Shown in pieces: positions 18,358-64,000 of a stretch of DNA of 64,000 bases. How positions within the stretch are numbered: the first letter of the stretch is position 1; each line of letters opens with the position of its first letter. The stretch spans positions 3,906,001 to 3,970,000 of the forward strand of contig NC_015177.1 of the NCBI RefSeq assembly GCF_000190735.1. Reading direction: 5' to 3'. The notes under the pieces were generated by a model, which saw only the letters and a program-made list of their open reading frames with translations, did not search any database and had not been told where the DNA came from. A program made the position numbers and the translations under genes. This DNA comes from Pseudopedobacter saltans DSM 12145. GTDB lineage: Bacteria > Bacteroidota > Bacteroidia > Sphingobacteriales > Sphingobacteriaceae.

Positions 18358-19152
18358 CTATTGGTGATCAAGTGATTTGTTTTGTTCTATCAGGTTTGTT
18401 AAGTCAACAAAATCTTTAACCGTTAACCTTTCTGCCCGTAAAGTCCATACTTCTTCTTCGCCCTGCAATTCTTTTTTGATTATCCCGGATAATGCATTGC
18501 TTAAAGTCTTTCTTCGCTGGTTGAAACCAGCTTTTACAATCTGCCAAAAAAGTTTTTCATTGCACTCCAATGTCTCGGTTTCGTTCCTTGTCAGTCTGAT
18601 GACTGCCGATAGAACTTTTGGAGGGGGATTAAAAACGCCGGCTTTTACAGTAAAGAGATATTCACATTTATAATAAGCCTGTAAAAACACACTTAATATT
18701 CCATATTCCTTGCTCCCTGCTTTTGCCACACAACGTTCAGCTACTTCTTTTTGAAACATTCCAACAACTTCAGGTACATGGTTTCTGTTCTCTAAAACTT
18801 TAAATAAAATCTGGGAACTGATGTTGTAAGGAAAATTTCCAATGATAGCAAAAGGTTCTAAAAAGATATCCCGGAAATTCAATTGGAGAAAATCCGCATT
18901 AATTAATTTGTCTCCTAAATTCGGATATTGTTTATGTAAAAATTCAAAAGATTCTGTGTCAATGTCTATCAGATAAGTTTCATAATCAGTTTTTTGAAGC
19001 AAAAAATCAGAAAGTACGCCCATTCCGGGGCCAACTTCCAGTACTTTTTTGTACTTATCTGTATGAATTAGGGAGTCTACAATTTTTTGAGCGATATTTT
19101 TATCTGTCAAAAAGTGCTGTCCTAAATGCTTTTTTGCTTTAACCGAATCCAT
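18358..19152 (-). CDS. rsmA: 16S rRNA dimethyladenosine transferase
   Basis: RsmA/KsgA dimethylates two adjacent adenines near the 3' end of 16S rRNA during small-subunit assembly. The protein begins MDSVKAKKHLGQHFLTDKNIA, with the SAM-binding motif EVGPGMGVLSDF and motif IV NFPYNISSQ (Phe in place of the commoner Leu). The start is set at the ATG at 19152, because a -7 promoter box lies inside the longer possible reading from 19209, and the family N-terminus begins here. About 264 residues, normal length. It is divergent from pdxA with a 101-base gap. Confidence 0.95.
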   Translation of the reverse strand: MDSVKAKKHLGQHFLTDKNIAQKIVDSLIHTDKYKKVLEVGPGMGVLSDFLLQKTDYETYLIDIDTESFEFLHKQYPNLGDKLINADFLQLNFRDIFLEPFAIIGNFPYNISSQILFKVLENRNHVPEVVGMFQKEVAERCVAKAGSKEYGILSVFLQAYYKCEYLFTVKAGVFNPPPKVLSAVIRLTRNETETLECNEKLFWQIVKAGFNQRRKTLSNALSGIIKKELQGEEEVWTLRAERLTVKDFVDLTNLIEQNKSLDHQ

Positions 19153-22313: not shown

Positions 22314-23318
22314 ATGAATAAAATTCATGCTGCTATTACAGCAGTACATGGTTATGTTCCAGATTACGTTTTAACCAATCACGAGTTAGAGAAAATGGTT
22401 GAAACCAATGATGAGTGGATTGTGTCCCGTACAGGAATTAAGGAAAGACGGATATTAAAAGATGTTACGCAGGCGACTTCTGATTTGGCTGTTCCTGCAG
22501 TAGAAGGCTTGCTTAAAAAAAGAGGAATATCTGCGGAAGAGATAGATTTAATAATTTTCTGTACATCCACACCGGATATGTTATTTCCGGCAACAGCAAA
22601 TATTCTTGCAGACAAGGTGGGTGCAAAAAATGCTTGGGGATATGATTTACAAGCGGCGTGTTCTGGTTTTATTTATGGACTTACAACAGGTGCTCAGTTT
22701 ATAGAATCCGGTCATCACAAAAAAGTGTTGGTAGTAGGTGGCGACACAATGTCTCGTGTAATTAATTATGAAGACAGGGCTACTTGTATTTTATTTGGTG
22801 ACGGTTGCGGTTGCGCATTGTTAGAACCAAACGAGGAAGGTCTTGGAATACAAGATGCGATCCTTAAAAGTGATGGTGGAGGCAAGGACTATTTGAATAT
22901 CCGTGGAGGAGGTTCATTACATCCGGCAACTCACGAGACGGTGGACCAAAAGCTTCACTACGCATTTCAGGAAGGCCAAACCGTGTTTAAATTTGCAGTT
23001 ACCAATATGGCAAATGTTGCAGCAGAGATTATGGAAAAAAATAATCTTACAGCTGACGATATAAAGTGGTTAATTCCGCATCAGGCCAATAAAAGAATTA
23101 TAGACGCAACTGCAAACAGAATGGGAATAGGCCCCGAAAAAGTGGCAATTAATATTGAGAAGTACGGTAATACAACAAACGGTACTATTCCGTTATGCTT
23201 GTGGGACTGGGAAAGCAAACTGAAAAAAGGAGATAACCTTATTTTAGCGGCTTTCGGTGGAGGTTTTACCTGGGGTTCCGTTTACCTTAAGTGGGCTTAC
23301 GACGGTAACAAATCATAA
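22314..23318 (+). CDS. fabH: Beta-ketoacyl-ACP synthase III FabH
   Basis: FabH condenses acetyl-CoA (or a branched acyl-CoA) with malonyl-ACP to begin fatty acid synthesis. The Cys-His-Asn triad is visible: Cys in LQAACSGFIYGL near residue 115, His in IPHQANKRI near residue 259, and Asn in KYGNTTNGTIP near residue 290. 334 residues, full length. It sits between plsX and the acetyl-CoA carboxylase genes accB and accC, so substrate supply and chain initiation are encoded together. Confidence 0.96.
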   Translation: MNKIHAAITAVHGYVPDYVLTNHELEKMVETNDEWIVSRTGIKERRILKDVTQATSDLAVPAVEGLLKKRGISAEEIDLIIFCTSTPDMLFPATANILADKVGAKNAWGYDLQAACSGFIYGLTTGAQFIESGHHKKVLVVGGDTMSRVINYEDRATCILFGDGCGCALLEPNEEGLGIQDAILKSDGGGKDYLNIRGGGSLHPATHETVDQKLHYAFQEGQTVFKFAVTNMANVAAEIMEKNNLTADDIKWLIPHQANKRIIDATANRMGIGPEKVAINIEKYGNTTNGTIPLCLWDWESKLKKGDNLILAAFGGGFTWGSVYLKWAYDGNKS

Positions 23319-58431: not shown

Positions 58432-59700
58432 TCAAAGCGTTTCCAAAGCATCCAGAATACAAAAGTAGATATATTCCAGATCCTGTTGGGAGATGCAGTA
58501 AGGAGGAACTAAATAAATAATGTTCCCCAGTGGACGCATTAAAATACCCCGTTGCAAAAAGAAAGGATAGAGGATATCATGCATATCGCTGAAATAGGAA
58601 GTGTCTTCTTCGATTTTCCATTCTAGGGCGAATATAGTTCCTTGTTGCCGGACATTTTTTATTTTAGGGTGTTTTACCAATGTATTGACAAACTGTTGAT
58701 GCTGTTTACAAATTCTTTGGATATTTTGTTGGGTTTCTTCCTGCAGTAATAAATCCATGCTGGCTAAAGCTGCAGCACAGGCTAGTGGACTCGCGGTAAA
58801 CGAATGTCCGTGAAAAAGCGCCTTGGTTTTATCGTTGGAATAAAAAGCATCATAGATTTTCTGCGAACTGGTTGTGATGCCTAATGGCATAGTCCCGCCT
58901 GTGAGGCCTTTTGAAAAACACATGATATCCGCTTGTGCTGATAAATGGTTGGCAGCAAACAGCTTGCCTGTACGTCCAAACCCAACAAAAATCTCATCTT
59001 GTATCAGTAAGATCCCTTTTGATCTGCAAAATTTCATCAGTTCGGATAAGTCATCTGCTTCATGCATCAACATGCCACCGGCACCCTGTACCAGTGGTTC
59101 GTAAATGAAACATGCAATTTCTGAAGCATGTTTTTCGATAAAACTTTTTGTACCCGAAAGATTTTCTTTGGTAGGTGCATCAATGAAAAGAACATCAAAT
59201 AATAATTCACCAAAAGGCGCCGTCCATAACCCACGGCCACTTACAGACATAGCGCCAAAGGTATCTCCGTGATAGCCATTTTTAAAGGCCAGAATTTTAT
59301 TCTTACGGACACCTTGATTGTGGCCATATTGAATGCACATTTTCAAAGCTACTTCTACCGCTGTGGAACCATTATCTGTGTAAAATACCTTTTCCTGATT
59401 ATCGGGTAGCAGATTTAATAGTCTTTCAGATAATTCAATAGCCACGGGATGTGTGAATCCGGCAAAGATTACCTGTTCTAATGTGTTTAGTTGTTCGGCA
59501 ACCTTTTTTGCAATATACGGATGCGCATGGCCATGTAGCGTTACCCACCAGGAAGATACCGCATCAATGTAACGTTTACCGTTAGCATCAAAAATGTAAG
59601 CCCCTTCTCCCCGAATAATCGGAATATGCCGGGCTGTTTTCATTTGGGTATAAGGGTGCCAGTTGACTTTTCTATCGCGTTCTATCAATTCGCTTTGCAT
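58432..59700 (-). CDS. bioA: Adenosylmethionine-8-amino-7-oxononanoate aminotransferase
   Basis: BioA makes 7,8-diaminopelargonate from KAPA with SAM as amino donor, using PLP. Family segments are [17 protein letters not shown] at the start, [52 protein letters not shown], and the PLP lysine in [14 protein letters not shown] near residue 280. 422 residues, complete. It is the last gene of the operon and overlaps bioB by 16 bases. Confidence 0.96.
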
Positions 59701-60680
59701 GCACTTTCTTTTTCTTTTACAAGAGGTTTTAGTCCTAGATTTTTAAGCATCTGCATATCTTCGGATACGCCCGGATTTGGTGTAACCAATAAAGTCTGTC
59801 TTTCTCCGGTAAAGATAGAATTAGCTCCGGCCATAAAACACCATGCCTGTTCGGTTTCACTCATTTCAATACGTCCTGCGCTTAAACGAACCATAGAAGC
59901 AGGCATTACAATACGGGCAGTAGCAATCATGCGTACCATATCCCAGATATCAACTTTCGGATTGTTTTCTAAAGGTGTTCCTTTTACTCGCGCCAATGCA
60001 TTGATGGGAACCGATTCGGGATGTTTTTCCATATTGGCCAGGGTACGTAACATGGAAATCCGGTCTTCATTAGTTTCGCCTAAACCTATAATACCACCAG
60101 AACAAACAGTAATTCCCGCTTTTCTGACATTATTTATGGTGTTGATACGATTATCGAATTGACGGGTAGATATAATTTCATCATAATATTCTTCAGAAGT
60201 GTCCAGATTATGGTTATAGGCATATAAGCCGGCGTCCTGTAAACGTTGTGCCTGGTTTTCGGTTAGCATCCCTAAAGTGCAGCATACTTCCAAACCCAAA
60301 TCATTTACACCTTTTACCATATCGATAATTCTATCAAAATCGCTATTGTCGCGGACTTCCCGCCATGCTGCTGCCATGCAGAAGCGTGATGAACCATTAT
60401 CTTTTGCTTTTTGCGCATGAGCAATTACTGTTTCTGTTGGTAATAATGCCTGAACTTTTATATCTGTATGGTATCTGGCCGCCTGTCCGCAATAAGAGCA
60501 ATCTTCGGGACAGCCACCGGTTTTTACCGACAGTAAAGTAGAAATTTGAACTTCGTCTGCCTTATGCCATTCACGATGAACGGTCGCCGCTTCATAAACG
60601 AGTTCTATTAAGGGCTTGTTGTAAATTTCTAAAAGTTCTTCTTTTGTCCAATTGTGACGTAATGTTTTTGTGTTTTCCAT
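59685..60680 (-). CDS. bioB: Biotin synthase BioB
   Basis: A radical-SAM enzyme that inserts sulfur into dethiobiotin. The cluster motif is [10 protein letters not shown] near residues 56-65 (CxxxCxxC, [4Fe-4S]); the family segments [33 protein letters not shown] and [16 protein letters not shown], the last with the Arg ligand of the [2Fe-2S] cluster, are intact. 331 residues. It lies 8 bases after bioD and overlaps bioA. Confidence 0.97.
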
Positions 60681-60688
60681 TGTCTTTT

Positions 60689-61300
60689 CTATAATGAAAG
60701 TGTTGTACAGATTTTTTTGATATCGGCTTTGTTGAGTTTGTTGAACTCGGGCAAGTGGATAATTTTTGTATGTTGATTAATGTTTTTAAGGATAATCCGT
60801 TCAGAATCCGGATTGAATTTCCCGTTAAGAACCATATAATCTATTTTGATCTGCCTTTGTCGCAAGGCCTGAATAGATAAAAGGGTATGATTAATGCATC
60901 CCAAATAATCCCGGGATACCAAAACTGTGGGAATGCTTAATTTTTCTATCAGATCAATAACGAAAAACTGCTCATTTAGAGGAACAAACAGTCCGCCCGC
61001 TCCTTCAATGATTAAATGATTGTTAGTCTGTGGCAATGCAAAATCATCTAACTCAATCTCTATATTTTCCATTCTGGCAGATTGATGTGGTGATGCCGCT
61101 ACTTTTAATCGATAATTTTCTTTATGGATCTTAAGATGTTCATCTATCAAAGCTCGTATGATCATACTGTCGCTCTGATGCAAATCGCCAGATTGGACAG
61201 GTTTCCAGTAATCTGCCTGAAAGTATTGTGTAAAAACAGCCGAAATAATCGTCTTTCCAACACCTGTTCCAATTCCGGTTACAAATAGCTTTTTATACAT
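60689..61300 (-). CDS. bioD: Dethiobiotin synthetase BioD
   Basis: BioD closes the ureido ring of dethiobiotin from DAPA, CO2 and ATP. The P-loop is [15 protein letters not shown] at residues 9-23 and the carboxylate-binding segment [14 protein letters not shown] is near residue 98. 203 residues, a little shorter than E. coli BioD. Its start overlaps the end of bioF by 8 bases. Confidence 0.94.
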
Positions 61301-62408
61301 ATTGATGTTGTTTGATGATACGACAAAGCCTGTCTATTTCTGCAAATGAATTAAACTGATGCAGACAAATCCGTAGTCTTTCCAATCCCGGTTTCACGGT
61401 AGGGGCAAATACTGAATAGGTTTCGATGTCTATTGCTGAAAGAGCAGTAACCGCCTGTCGCAGTTTTGTTGATGAAGGAAACTGAACAATTTGTATAGGG
61501 CTTTTCTCCTGAGATATGGAATGAACCTGATGTGACCTGAAATATTCAATGTTTTTCTGTAATCTTATCGCCAAATCGGGATGTTCATCCATGTATTTGT
61601 AGGAAGCTCGTATGCTTAAACTCTGAAAATCTGATGCTGCAGTAGAGTAGATAAACGGAGAAGCGAAATTGATCAGATATTCTTTTAGTACCCGGCTTCC
61701 CAAAACTGCAGCACCATTCAATCCCATGGCTTTTCCGTAGGTAGCGATAGTCGCAAATACCTTGTTTTGCAGTTGGTTTTGATAAACCAGACCTTTTCCA
61801 AAAACACCCAAAGCATGTGCTTCATCTACAATAAGATTGGCCTGATATCTAAATGCAAGTTCCGCGATATCTTCTAAGGGTGCAAAATCGCCGTCCATAG
61901 AATACAGGCTTTCTATGGCGATTAAGGTATTTCCTTTCATCTTTTTGAGGAGAGACTCCAGATGATCTAAATCGTTATGTTTAAATTTCCATTTTGTTGC
62001 ATTAGAAAGCAAGCAGCCGTCGTGAACAGAACGGTGAACATACTCGTCAACTAAAATAGTATCGTTTCTTTGGGCAATACAAGAGAATAGCGCCAGATTA
62101 GCTTTATAGCCAGATGGAAATAATAAAGCGCTTTTGTTACCGTGGTTTTCGGCTAAAAAGCTTTCCACCTGCATGGTAGTTTCCGTATTTCCACTAATTA
62201 ATCTTGATCCGGTTGACCCCATTAGCGATTTGGGATTTTCCAGAGCTGTTTTCAGGATTTGCTGTTGAAAAGTTTGGTCGCGGGTCAATCCTAAATAATC
62301 ATTAGAACAGAAATCGATAGATGCTTTGCCGATTTTTAATTTCCGCAAAATCCCTTCGCTTTCACGTTGTTCAAGTCGGTTAAGCAATTGTGCTTGTAGC
62401 GTTAACAT
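61293..62408 (-). CDS. bioF: 8-amino-7-oxononanoate synthase BioF
   Basis: BioF condenses a pimeloyl thioester with alanine to KAPA, using PLP. Family segments are IDFCSNDYLGLTRDQ, SGSTGSRLISGN-like (here GSTGSRLISGNTETT), LIVDEAHALGVFGKG, and the PLP lysine in TYGKAMGLNGAAVLG near residue 226. 371 residues, normal. It begins inside the last 29 bases of the preceding diiron-like gene. Its substrate pimeloyl unit has no visible producer in this operon unless the upstream gene supplies it. Confidence 0.94.
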   Translation of the reverse strand: MLTLQAQLLNRLEQRESEGILRKLKIGKASIDFCSNDYLGLTRDQTFQQQILKTALENPKSLMGSTGSRLISGNTETTMQVESFLAENHGNKSALLFPSGYKANLALFSCIAQRNDTILVDEYVHRSVHDGCLLSNATKWKFKHNDLDHLESLLKKMKGNTLIAIESLYSMDGDFAPLEDIAELAFRYQANLIVDEAHALGVFGKGLVYQNQLQNKVFATIATYGKAMGLNGAAVLGSRVLKEYLINFASPFIYSTAASDFQSLSIRASYKYMDEHPDLAIRLQKNIEYFRSHQVHSISQEKSPIQIVQFPSSTKLRQAVTALSAIDIETYSVFAPTVKPGLERLRICLHQFNSFAEIDRLCRIIKQHQYV

Positions 62409-63012
62409 AAGCTAAAACCTCTTTTGAAATGGCCGAAAACCAATTGGAAAATAATTGTTGCTCGATTTTCTGCATGTGGGAAGCATGTTGTTTCCAGTTA
62501 CAATCAAATCGTTCTAATTGTGTTATCATTTCTTCCAAATGCCCTTCTTCTTCTAAAATGATAGATTTTACCATCACTTTTGAATGCTGTCTGGTTAAAA
62601 CTTCCTGATATTGTGGATACAGCTCATCCGCTCGAACTTCTATAGCATAAGTGACAAAAAGGTATGAAGCATATTTTAGTTCGTTCCCACTCAGTGCAAA
62701 TTGCTTTTTTAAATAGCGGCTGCATAATACGTCCAAAGACTGCAGGTATTGTCTGGTATATACCTTGCCCAACAAATCGTCTAAGAAGTAATATCTAAAG
62801 GAATTTGGTGTTATTTTTTCAATTTGTTTCTTTAAATAATAAGCATGTCTGTGCTCTTCGGCGGCATGTTTTAGCTGGATAATATCTGTGGTATAAGGAT
62901 GTTCACAGGCCGAAATTTTTCTGGCACCTGCGTTCTCCATAAAAGATAAAGTGTTAAGCCATTTTGCATGCAATTCGGAATGTTCTACAATATGTTGAAG
63001 CGTGGAAAGCAT
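62380..63012 (-). CDS. Ferritin-like diiron-motif protein heading the biotin operon
   Basis: A 210-residue soluble, all-helical protein of no family I can name. It shows the ligand plan of ferritin-like diiron proteins: Glu26 in helix 1 (SFMENAGARKI), Glu53-x-x-His56 in helix 2 (AAEEHRHAYYL), Glu125 or Glu130 in helix 3 (AIEVRADELY), and Glu155-x-x-His158 in helix 4 (ILEEEGHLEEM). It is the first gene of the biotin operon, overlapping bioF by 29 bases, so it is translationally coupled to it. A role in making the pimeloyl precursor by oxidation, in place of BioC/BioH or BioI, is inference. Alternatives are a regulatory or structural role. A weaker -7-like TACTTTTA lies 16 bases upstream. Confidence 0.7.
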   Translation of the reverse strand: MLSTLQHIVEHSELHAKWLNTLSFMENAGARKISACEHPYTTDIIQLKHAAEEHRHAYYLKKQIEKITPNSFRYYFLDDLLGKVYTRQYLQSLDVLCSRYLKKQFALSGNELKYASYLFVTYAIEVRADELYPQYQEVLTRQHSKVMVKSIILEEEGHLEEMITQLERFDCNWKQHASHMQKIEQQLFSNWFSAISKEVLAYVNATSTIA

Positions 63013-63029
63013 ATTTCTACTTTTTTGAT

Positions 63030-63044
63030 AAAAGTATTACCTTT
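63030..63044. promoter_or_regulatory. Palindrome in the bio/MocR divergent promoter region
   Basis: AAAAGTATTACCTTT is a 15-base dyad (7-base arms, one mismatch) in the 64-base gap between the operon and the divergent regulator. It overlaps the likely -7 box of the minus-strand operon, so a protein bound here would block it. It is the best candidate for the regulator's operator. Confidence 0.4.
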
Positions 63045-63076
63045 CCGGATGGTTTGGTTGTGCCAGTTTTTAAATT

Positions 63077-64000
63077 ATGGATAGTCCGGTTGAGATACCT
63101 TTTAAAAGTTTTATACAGATTGACCGAAAATCGGAGGTAGCGGTGTTTATGCAAATTGCCAATCAGCTGATTTATGCCATTCAGAGAAATCTGGTTTTAC
63201 CAGGAACAAAATTACCAGGAACCAGAGTTTTAGGTGAATTGCTGGATGTGCATCGCAATACCATTACTGCTGTTTATGACGAACTTTATGCACAGGGTTG
63301 GGTAGAAATAAAACCGAATCAGGGAACTTTTATAAGTTCCGAACTACCTTTCACAGAAAAATTGCGATCGGGAATGCCCGAATATGTTTATCCACAACAG
63401 ACAGGATTTACTTTCAGAAAATCTAATTTACTGGATAACCCTTTTGAAAATACCACCTGTGATTACGTTTTTAATGATGGCGTACCTGATGTCCGTTTAA
63501 CCCAGTTGAATGACATTTCTCGATTTTACAGTGCGAATATCAAACGGCGAAGCAACCGAAAAAGAATGGGTTATTATAACCAGGAAGGAAGTGAATATTT
63601 TAAATATCAATTATCCTATTACCTTAATTTGTCGCGTGGCCTCCCTGTTTCGACTAATAATTTGCTGATTACCCGCAGTATTGAAATGAGTTTGTTTATC
63701 ATCTCGGAAATCCTGCTTTCTGCACAAGACACAGTTGTGGTGGGAAGATTGAGTTATTTTTCGGCAAATATGATCTTTCAAAAATCGGGAGCGCGAATAA
63801 AAACTATTCCGGTAGACGAAGAGGGAATTGACACCGATGCTTTACAAAAACTATGCGAACAGCAGCAGATTAGAATGGTGTATGTTACACCACATCATCA
63901 TTATCCAACGACTGTAAGTTTAAGCGTACCAAGAAGGATGGAGCTGTTGAGATTGGCGAATCACTATGGTTTTGTGATTGTAGAAGATGACTATGACTAT
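63077..64000 (+). CDS. MocR-family (GntR-aminotransferase fusion) regulator, partial
   Basis: The first 308 codons of a PLP-dependent MocR/PdxR-type transcription factor; the frame is open to the window end. An N-terminal GntR winged helix (about 15-85: NLVLPGTKLPGTRVLGELLDV, then HRNTITAVYDELYAQGWVEI) is joined by a linker to a fold-type I aminotransferase domain. The visible part includes MGYYNQEGSEYFKYQLSYYL, VYVTPHHHYPTTVSLS and the PLP-binding Asp of the EDDYDY motif; the Schiff-base lysine would lie beyond the window. Divergent placement suggests that it controls the biotin operon. Confidence 0.9.
   Translation, partial: MDSPVEIPFKSFIQIDRKSEVAVFMQIANQLIYAIQRNLVLPGTKLPGTRVLGELLDVHRNTITAVYDELYAQGWVEIKPNQGTFISSELPFTEKLRSGMPEYVYPQQTGFTFRKSNLLDNPFENTTCDYVFNDGVPDVRLTQLNDISRFYSANIKRRSNRKRMGYYNQEGSEYFKYQLSYYLNLSRGLPVSTNNLLITRSIEMSLFIISEILLSAQDTVVVGRLSYFSANMIFQKSGARIKTIPVDEEGIDTDALQKLCEQQQIRMVYVTPHHHYPTTVSLSVPRRMELLRLANHYGFVIVEDDYDY

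Follow-up and report, generated by a model that had tools for sequence, protein, structure and literature searches.

The closest described system is BioE, which PMC12915131 counts as the fourth described route to the pimeloyl unit of biotin. As presented in that paper, which credits the discovery to PNAS 2025, 122, 2501226122, EmBioE of Elizabethkingia meningoseptica is a diiron oxygenase that cuts long-chain acyl-ACP or acyl-CoA between C7 and C8 to give a pimeloyl thioester. EmBioE and CpBioE, the latter from Chlamydia psittaci, produce pimeloyl-ACP from C14-C18 acyl-ACP, CpBioE having been shown to yield undecanoic acid from C18, and both replace BioC-BioH in E. coli; the assays were supplied with a reductant, and complementation failed without air (PMC12915131). 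Acyl-CoA is also accepted by EmBioE, and EmBioF is said to take only pimeloyl-CoA in vivo (PMC12915131). For the homologues, the same source reports iron content, products, oxygen need, mutants, and repression of the bio operon by BioL, which is described as sensing the product of BioF, and it lists Sphingobacteriaceae among the families with BioE.

We have analysed a stretch of 64,000 nucleotides, hereafter the window, from Pseudopedobacter saltans DSM 12145, a member of the Sphingobacteriaceae with a genome in a single contig of 4,635,236 bases. The G+C content of the window is 37.3%, versus the 36.6% published for Pedobacter saltans 113T, a species recorded by keyword as strictly aerobic (PMC3236043), and a viral-contig scan returned no match. 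Close to its right-hand end, five genes follow one another on the same strand in the order bioE-F-D-B-A, with bioE first and a regulator gene diverging from it:

bioE, 62380..63012, minus strand: ATG start, 210 residues, putative diiron oxygenase with ligands E26, E53, H56, E125, E155 and H158; named by homology and the EmBioE ligands.
bioF, 61293..62408, minus strand: 8-amino-7-oxononanoate synthase, 371 residues; best family TIGR00858, with 299.7 bits where the cut-off is 426.45, so that the name rests on best family and context.
bioD, 60689..61300, minus strand: dethiobiotin synthase; TIGR00347 above cut-off.
bioB, 59685..60680, minus strand: biotin synthase; TIGR00433 above cut-off.
bioA, 58432..59700, minus strand: DAPA transaminase; TIGR00508 above cut-off.
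bioL, 63077..64000 and on past the window end (genome 3969077-3970552; L036:778-2253), plus strand: MocR-type regulator with GntR and aminotransferase parts, 491 residues.

Judging by sequence and by analogy with the published homologues, we regard it as very probable that the first gene is bioE and that the whole explanation applies, in which diiron cleavage of an acyl chain would feed BioF under repression by BioL. The window BioE would bind two irons through its six ligands, activate O2 using electrons from a donor, and cut long-chain acyl-ACP or acyl-CoA between C7 and C8 into a shorter fatty acid and pimeloyl-ACP or pimeloyl-CoA. BioF would then couple the pimeloyl thioester to alanine, BioA, BioD, and BioB would complete biotin, and the divergent MocR-type BioL would repress the operon through the 64 bases of promoter DNA that the two share. 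The overlap of bioE with bioF (62380-62408, 29 bases) would suit a reaction whose product goes straight to BioF. The original prediction, in which a diiron enzyme supplies BioF by oxidising a fatty acyl chain, is supported and agrees with the activity of EmBioE and CpBioE (PMC12915131). Its further suggestion of a new route does not stand, as the BioE-BioL route was published in 2025 with Sphingobacteriaceae on its list (PMC12915131); the BioE system of the window is already known.

The six ligand residues carry identical numbers in the window protein and in EmBioE (PMC12915131), and no exception to them occurs among the 126 homologue rows (80 named and 46 from the window's family, some genomes occurring twice), so the conservation looked for among homologues holds for these six. 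A seventh residue had been put forward with them, and all seven are present in the protein, but E130 was rejected as a ligand because it is not conserved (E in 63 of the 80 named and 39 of the 46 family rows). Named homologues are the best 80 of 505 relatives from a genome-collection scan, and counts among them are not independent, since this best 80 is rich in Chryseobacterium and Chitinophaga. The 126-row alignment omits two copies of the gene itself (L001 and L036), a truncated row (L045) and one without a hit (L046); family genomes G118 and G128 stand in it twice, and three Sphingobacterium contigs are apparently in both the named and the family groups (L005/L072, L006/L075, and L007/L093). 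Two smaller alignments hold 28 homologues (A1) and 30 of the 80 named sequences (A2).

Likeness to EmBioE extends to the pocket, where the window protein has all six inhibitor-contact residues of the published enzyme, L22, M25, K32, Y117, I124, and L131 (PMC12915131). Across the alignment, L22, K32, Y117, I124, and Y132 are identical in all 126 rows and L131 in 125. The window protein is 63% identical to its counterpart in E. miricola (residues 1-209), 65% to that of E. sp. YR214 (1-207), 66% to that of E. occulta (1-202), and 66% to a Chryseobacterium indologenes protein. These Elizabethkingia values exceed the BioE rule of PMC12915131 (>40% identity over >85% coverage), although our identities are to congeners and the rule is set against EmBioE itself. 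The proteins differ at the CoA interface, where EmBioE has K46 and H91 (PMC12915131) and the window protein has Q at both positions; Q46 is invariant in 31 aligned sequences, Elizabethkingia included. By homology, the window BioE protein and BioL would do the same job as their published counterparts, and we can likewise only infer whether acyl-ACP or acyl-CoA would be the preferred substrate. PMC12915131 describes CpBioE as about 40% identical to EmBioE, monomeric, active on acyl-ACP only, and lacking bioL. Its six ligands match those of the window protein by a shift of 15 residues, and by the same numbering shift 10 of its 11 pocket residues map to hydrophobic or aromatic ones in the window protein. 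Pocket residue L205 of CpBioE corresponds by that shift to residue 190 of the window protein, which is N; like the two CoA-interface differences, this speaks against the BioE reading.

An AlphaFold2 model built from 31 sequences is all-helical and confident (mean pLDDT 95.1, pTM 0.91) and agrees, as do the coordinates, with the earlier description of a helical protein from a 210-residue reading frame overlapping bioF by 29 bases. It places the ligands on four predicted long helices, with E26 on 12-35, E53/H56 on 44-64, E125 on 109-141, and E155/H158 on 149-169. No PDB structure reached E 0.001 in a Foldseek search. AetD chains formed the top rows, with a best E of 0.013 and TM up to 0.61 by query length, and the ferritin-like 3ez0 came at rank 33 with TM 0.50, behind many F-BAR chains. 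On this ranking, the protein might have the fold of heme-oxygenase-like diiron oxygenases (HDOs) and not that of ferritin-like ones (FDOs), a fold question compatible with BioE function. Among solved folds, AetD comes nearest by Foldseek; with UndA, it shares with the window protein the character of a helical diiron oxygenase. According to a 2026 review, most HDOs have 3 His and 3 carboxylates, on core helices 1-3, and the rest mostly 3 His and 4 carboxylates, and sets of 4 carboxylates and 2 His occur among FDOs (PMC13108848). FDOs draw their ligands from four core helices; the window protein matches ferritin-like folds weakly. The conserved set in the homologues, 4 Glu and 2 His in two ExxH motifs, departs from the 3 His/3 carboxylate set of AetD and UndA and corresponds to one found among FDOs, and the Foldseek E-values are 0.013 or worse, so we judge the HDO assignment improbable. 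On the strength of the conserved 4 Glu/2 His set, we keep the ferritin-like label of PMC12915131, with reserve as to the fold.

The arrangement seen in the window, a divergent bioL followed by bioE-F-D-B-A, recurs in 63 of the 80 named loci, while bioE-B alone beside a divergent bioL occurs in 14, all Chitinophaga, and bioE-F-D-B-A with no bioL in view in 3; a bioL homologue is thus in view in 77 of the 80. These counts compare six bio genes, a match being counted from 35% identity upwards when it covered half of the query or more; a gene for an electron donor close to bioE would not show in them. E. miricola, the congener of the EmBioE source, likewise has a divergent bioL-like gene and the window's gene order, with a bioE/bioF overlap of 26 bases (L058). 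The locus differs from that of E. meningoseptica, for which two BioL-bound promoters are described, before bioEFD and before bioBA (PMC12915131), whereas the window bioB follows bioD after 8 bases.

Across the 151 genomes of the window's family, for which the listings give all matches but not all misses, BioE was matched in 80 and bioB in 104, with both in 78, BioE only in 2, bioB only in 26, and neither in 45. The gene bioB was therefore found in 78 of the 80 genomes with a BioE match versus 26 of the 71 without, in counts that ignore relatedness. One BioE-only genome (G138) is a draft with 7% contamination. The other, G090, carries a 125-residue reading frame (L177:6603-6980) that fuses approximately the first 53 BioE residues to the terminal part of BioB and looks like the scar of a deletion; neither a bioB match at E 1e-60 nor a full-length match to BioE was found in this genome. 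At the level of the phylum, the BioE profile matched 15 of 392 genomes, P. saltans included.

The divergent gene at 63077 looks like BioL. Its part within the window has GntR and aminotransferase Pfam domains above cut-off, as in MocR-type regulators, and the protein carries R50 as well as a lysine of PLP type, residue 337, in the motif GSFGKSL, which is also present in the bioL-like neighbour of E. miricola. In EmBioL, the DNA-contacting R50 and the PLP-binding K340 were tested (PMC12915131); lysine 337 is matched to K340 by motif only. The divergent promoter region between bioE and bioL (63013-63076) is very compact at 64 bases, and within it lies a conserved element:

Conserved promoter element, 63035..63066, minus strand: CTGG-N14-CCGG followed by TACTTTTA, in the 64-base bioE/bioL intergenic stretch.

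In 66 of the 80 named loci, across Bacteroidota families, CTGG-N13/14-CCGG was found no more than 250 bases upstream of bioE; the two strands of the named loci (1,980,172 bases) contain it 151 times in total. TA and TTT follow at fixed places in 66 of 66, mostly as TACTTTTG. The exact pattern is absent from 14 named loci; among the 12 listed, several have one-base variants, and L064 and L092 have no element. A longer version of the pattern matched twice in the whole P. saltans genome, once at bioE, and a reversed control pattern did not match at all. We consider the element a probable BioL operator combined with the bioE promoter, and its conservation is consistent with repression of bioE by BioL. 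The probes used in EMSAs of BioL are said to have been palindromic promoter sequences of ~50 bp (PMC12915131).

In a tree of 96 BioE rows (95 homologues, thinned by hand, with long branches flagged by the program), the window protein is placed in a 60-row clade (support 100/99) that includes Chitinophagaceae, Weeksellaceae, Sphingobacterium, and single rows of other families; its inner position is not strongly supported. BioE was matched in 14 other genomes of the same genus, and the six of these proteins that the tree includes all lie outside the 60-row clade. Their bioE genes adjoin bioA with no bioL in view, and bioB is on another contig in four of the six; in the other two it lies at a distance of ~7 kb (G054) and >400 kb (G108). 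The BioE protein tree and these layouts suggest that the window operon may have been acquired as a unit by horizontal transfer and that it differs from the usual form of its genus. Four divergent BioE proteins, from loci of family genomes that also have the bioL-bioE-F-D-B order (L037, L039, L040, and L044; 49-56% identity), sit on long branches near the midpoint root and are possibly an older or faster-evolving form.

Profile searches of the P. saltans genome gave no match for BioW, P450, or BioG. The route of Bacillus subtilis thus has no counterpart among these matches, and its BioI, a P450 heme enzyme, belongs to another family than BioE. No BioC stood above the cut-off of 184.95 bits, although twenty weak matches were recorded, the best at 60 bits. 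In 14 control genomes, BioW passed its cut-off in 2 and P450 in 7, BioC passed in 1, and BioG was matched in 1 and above cut-off in 0; because the BioG and BioC controls are weak, those two negatives weigh less than the ones for BioW and P450. Three KAS III genes were above cut-off and one below. The strongest of them lies in the window:

KAS III, FabH-like, 22314-23318: PF08541, 112.5 bits, the strongest KAS III of the genome.

Judging from translations, we take its neighbours to be rpmF-plsX before and accB-accC after, and on this neighbourhood we read it as the housekeeping FabH, not BioZ. The accB- and accC-like genes that follow it belong to a system that uses biotin. The claim that the window holds no pimeloyl genes is therefore to be qualified by this KAS III, read as FabH, and by a weak BioC-model match at 18868-19119 (22.7 bits against the cut-off of 184.95). 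For the genome as a whole, no complete alternative pimeloyl route, which would have spoken against the prediction, was found with the BioW, BioG, P450, BioC, and KAS III models, the strongest of the three KAS III genes above cut-off being the one assigned.

Two other functions for the gene have to be weighed against this background. A diverged BioC with an esterase, or a BioZ-like KAS III, might provide the pimeloyl unit and leave bioE with another job; the twenty weak BioC matches and the KAS III genes above and below cut-off would be the material for such a route, but the best BioC match, at 60 bits, is far from 184.95 and the strongest KAS III stands in housekeeping gene order, which makes this reading highly unlikely. 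The protein might instead store or handle iron for the iron-sulfur enzyme BioB, or protect against oxygen, and take no part in pimeloyl synthesis. Searches with the window protein gave nothing in Pfam better than E 0.39, no convincing relative in PDB sequence searches with the protein or alignments, and, as the best NCBIfam model, an encapsulin-associated ferritin-like family at E 0.0042, far below its cut-off; 8 of 29 homologues resemble a rubrerythrin profile, at best with E 0.00018. These faint ferritin-like similarities speak for an iron-handling role, as does the placement of bioE directly before bioB in the 14 named Chitinophaga loci. Against it, published homologues make pimeloyl-ACP and replace BioC-BioH in E. 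coli (PMC12915131), the hydrophobic pocket residues are conserved in homologues, and the P. saltans genome would be left with no other pimeloyl source found; we hold iron storage or protection to be very improbable, and BioE-dependent pimeloyl synthesis remains by far the preferred reading.

The 26 family genomes (L145-L170, among the 151) with bioB have no BioE match, the profile reaching E 0.08 at best, and no BioC above cut-off. With 26 of the 104 bioB genomes in this state, bioE is not the sole way to live with bioB. In 19 of the 26 stretches, some of them short, bioB is the one member of the six bio genes to be seen, and in four (L150, L155, L167, and L168) it lies beside a bioL-like gene. 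A lone bioB is uninformative by itself, since it also occurs in all six bioE-carrying comparison genomes (L171-L176). Salvage of dethiobiotin is one possible reading of the bioB-only genomes. G021, G077, and G144 (L153, L158, and L169) have a complete bioB-F-D-A cluster without a BioE match or a BioC above cut-off, and no obvious pimeloyl gene adjoins these clusters. An additional, undescribed pimeloyl source in the window's family is conceivable, if rather unlikely; the main alternative for the bioB-only genomes is a diverged BioC, whose model matched G021, G077, and G144 at 75-81 bits, and no family genome passed its cut-off.

The window adds a probable BioE member, encoded in a compact operon of five genes, from a free-living soil bacterium whose genome gave no match to BioW, BioG, or P450. 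Because none of the Pfam and NCBIfam families matched the window protein above cut-off, and no listed one bears the name BioE, genes of this kind go unnamed in both libraries, and genomes that depend on them could be misread as having no pimeloyl route. The window bioE would be a clean system in which to study where the electrons come from, how the chain is cut at C7-C8, and how BioL exerts control. What remains of interest is this free-living member itself, the candidate operator, the two forms of the locus, and the 26 bioB-only genomes of the family.
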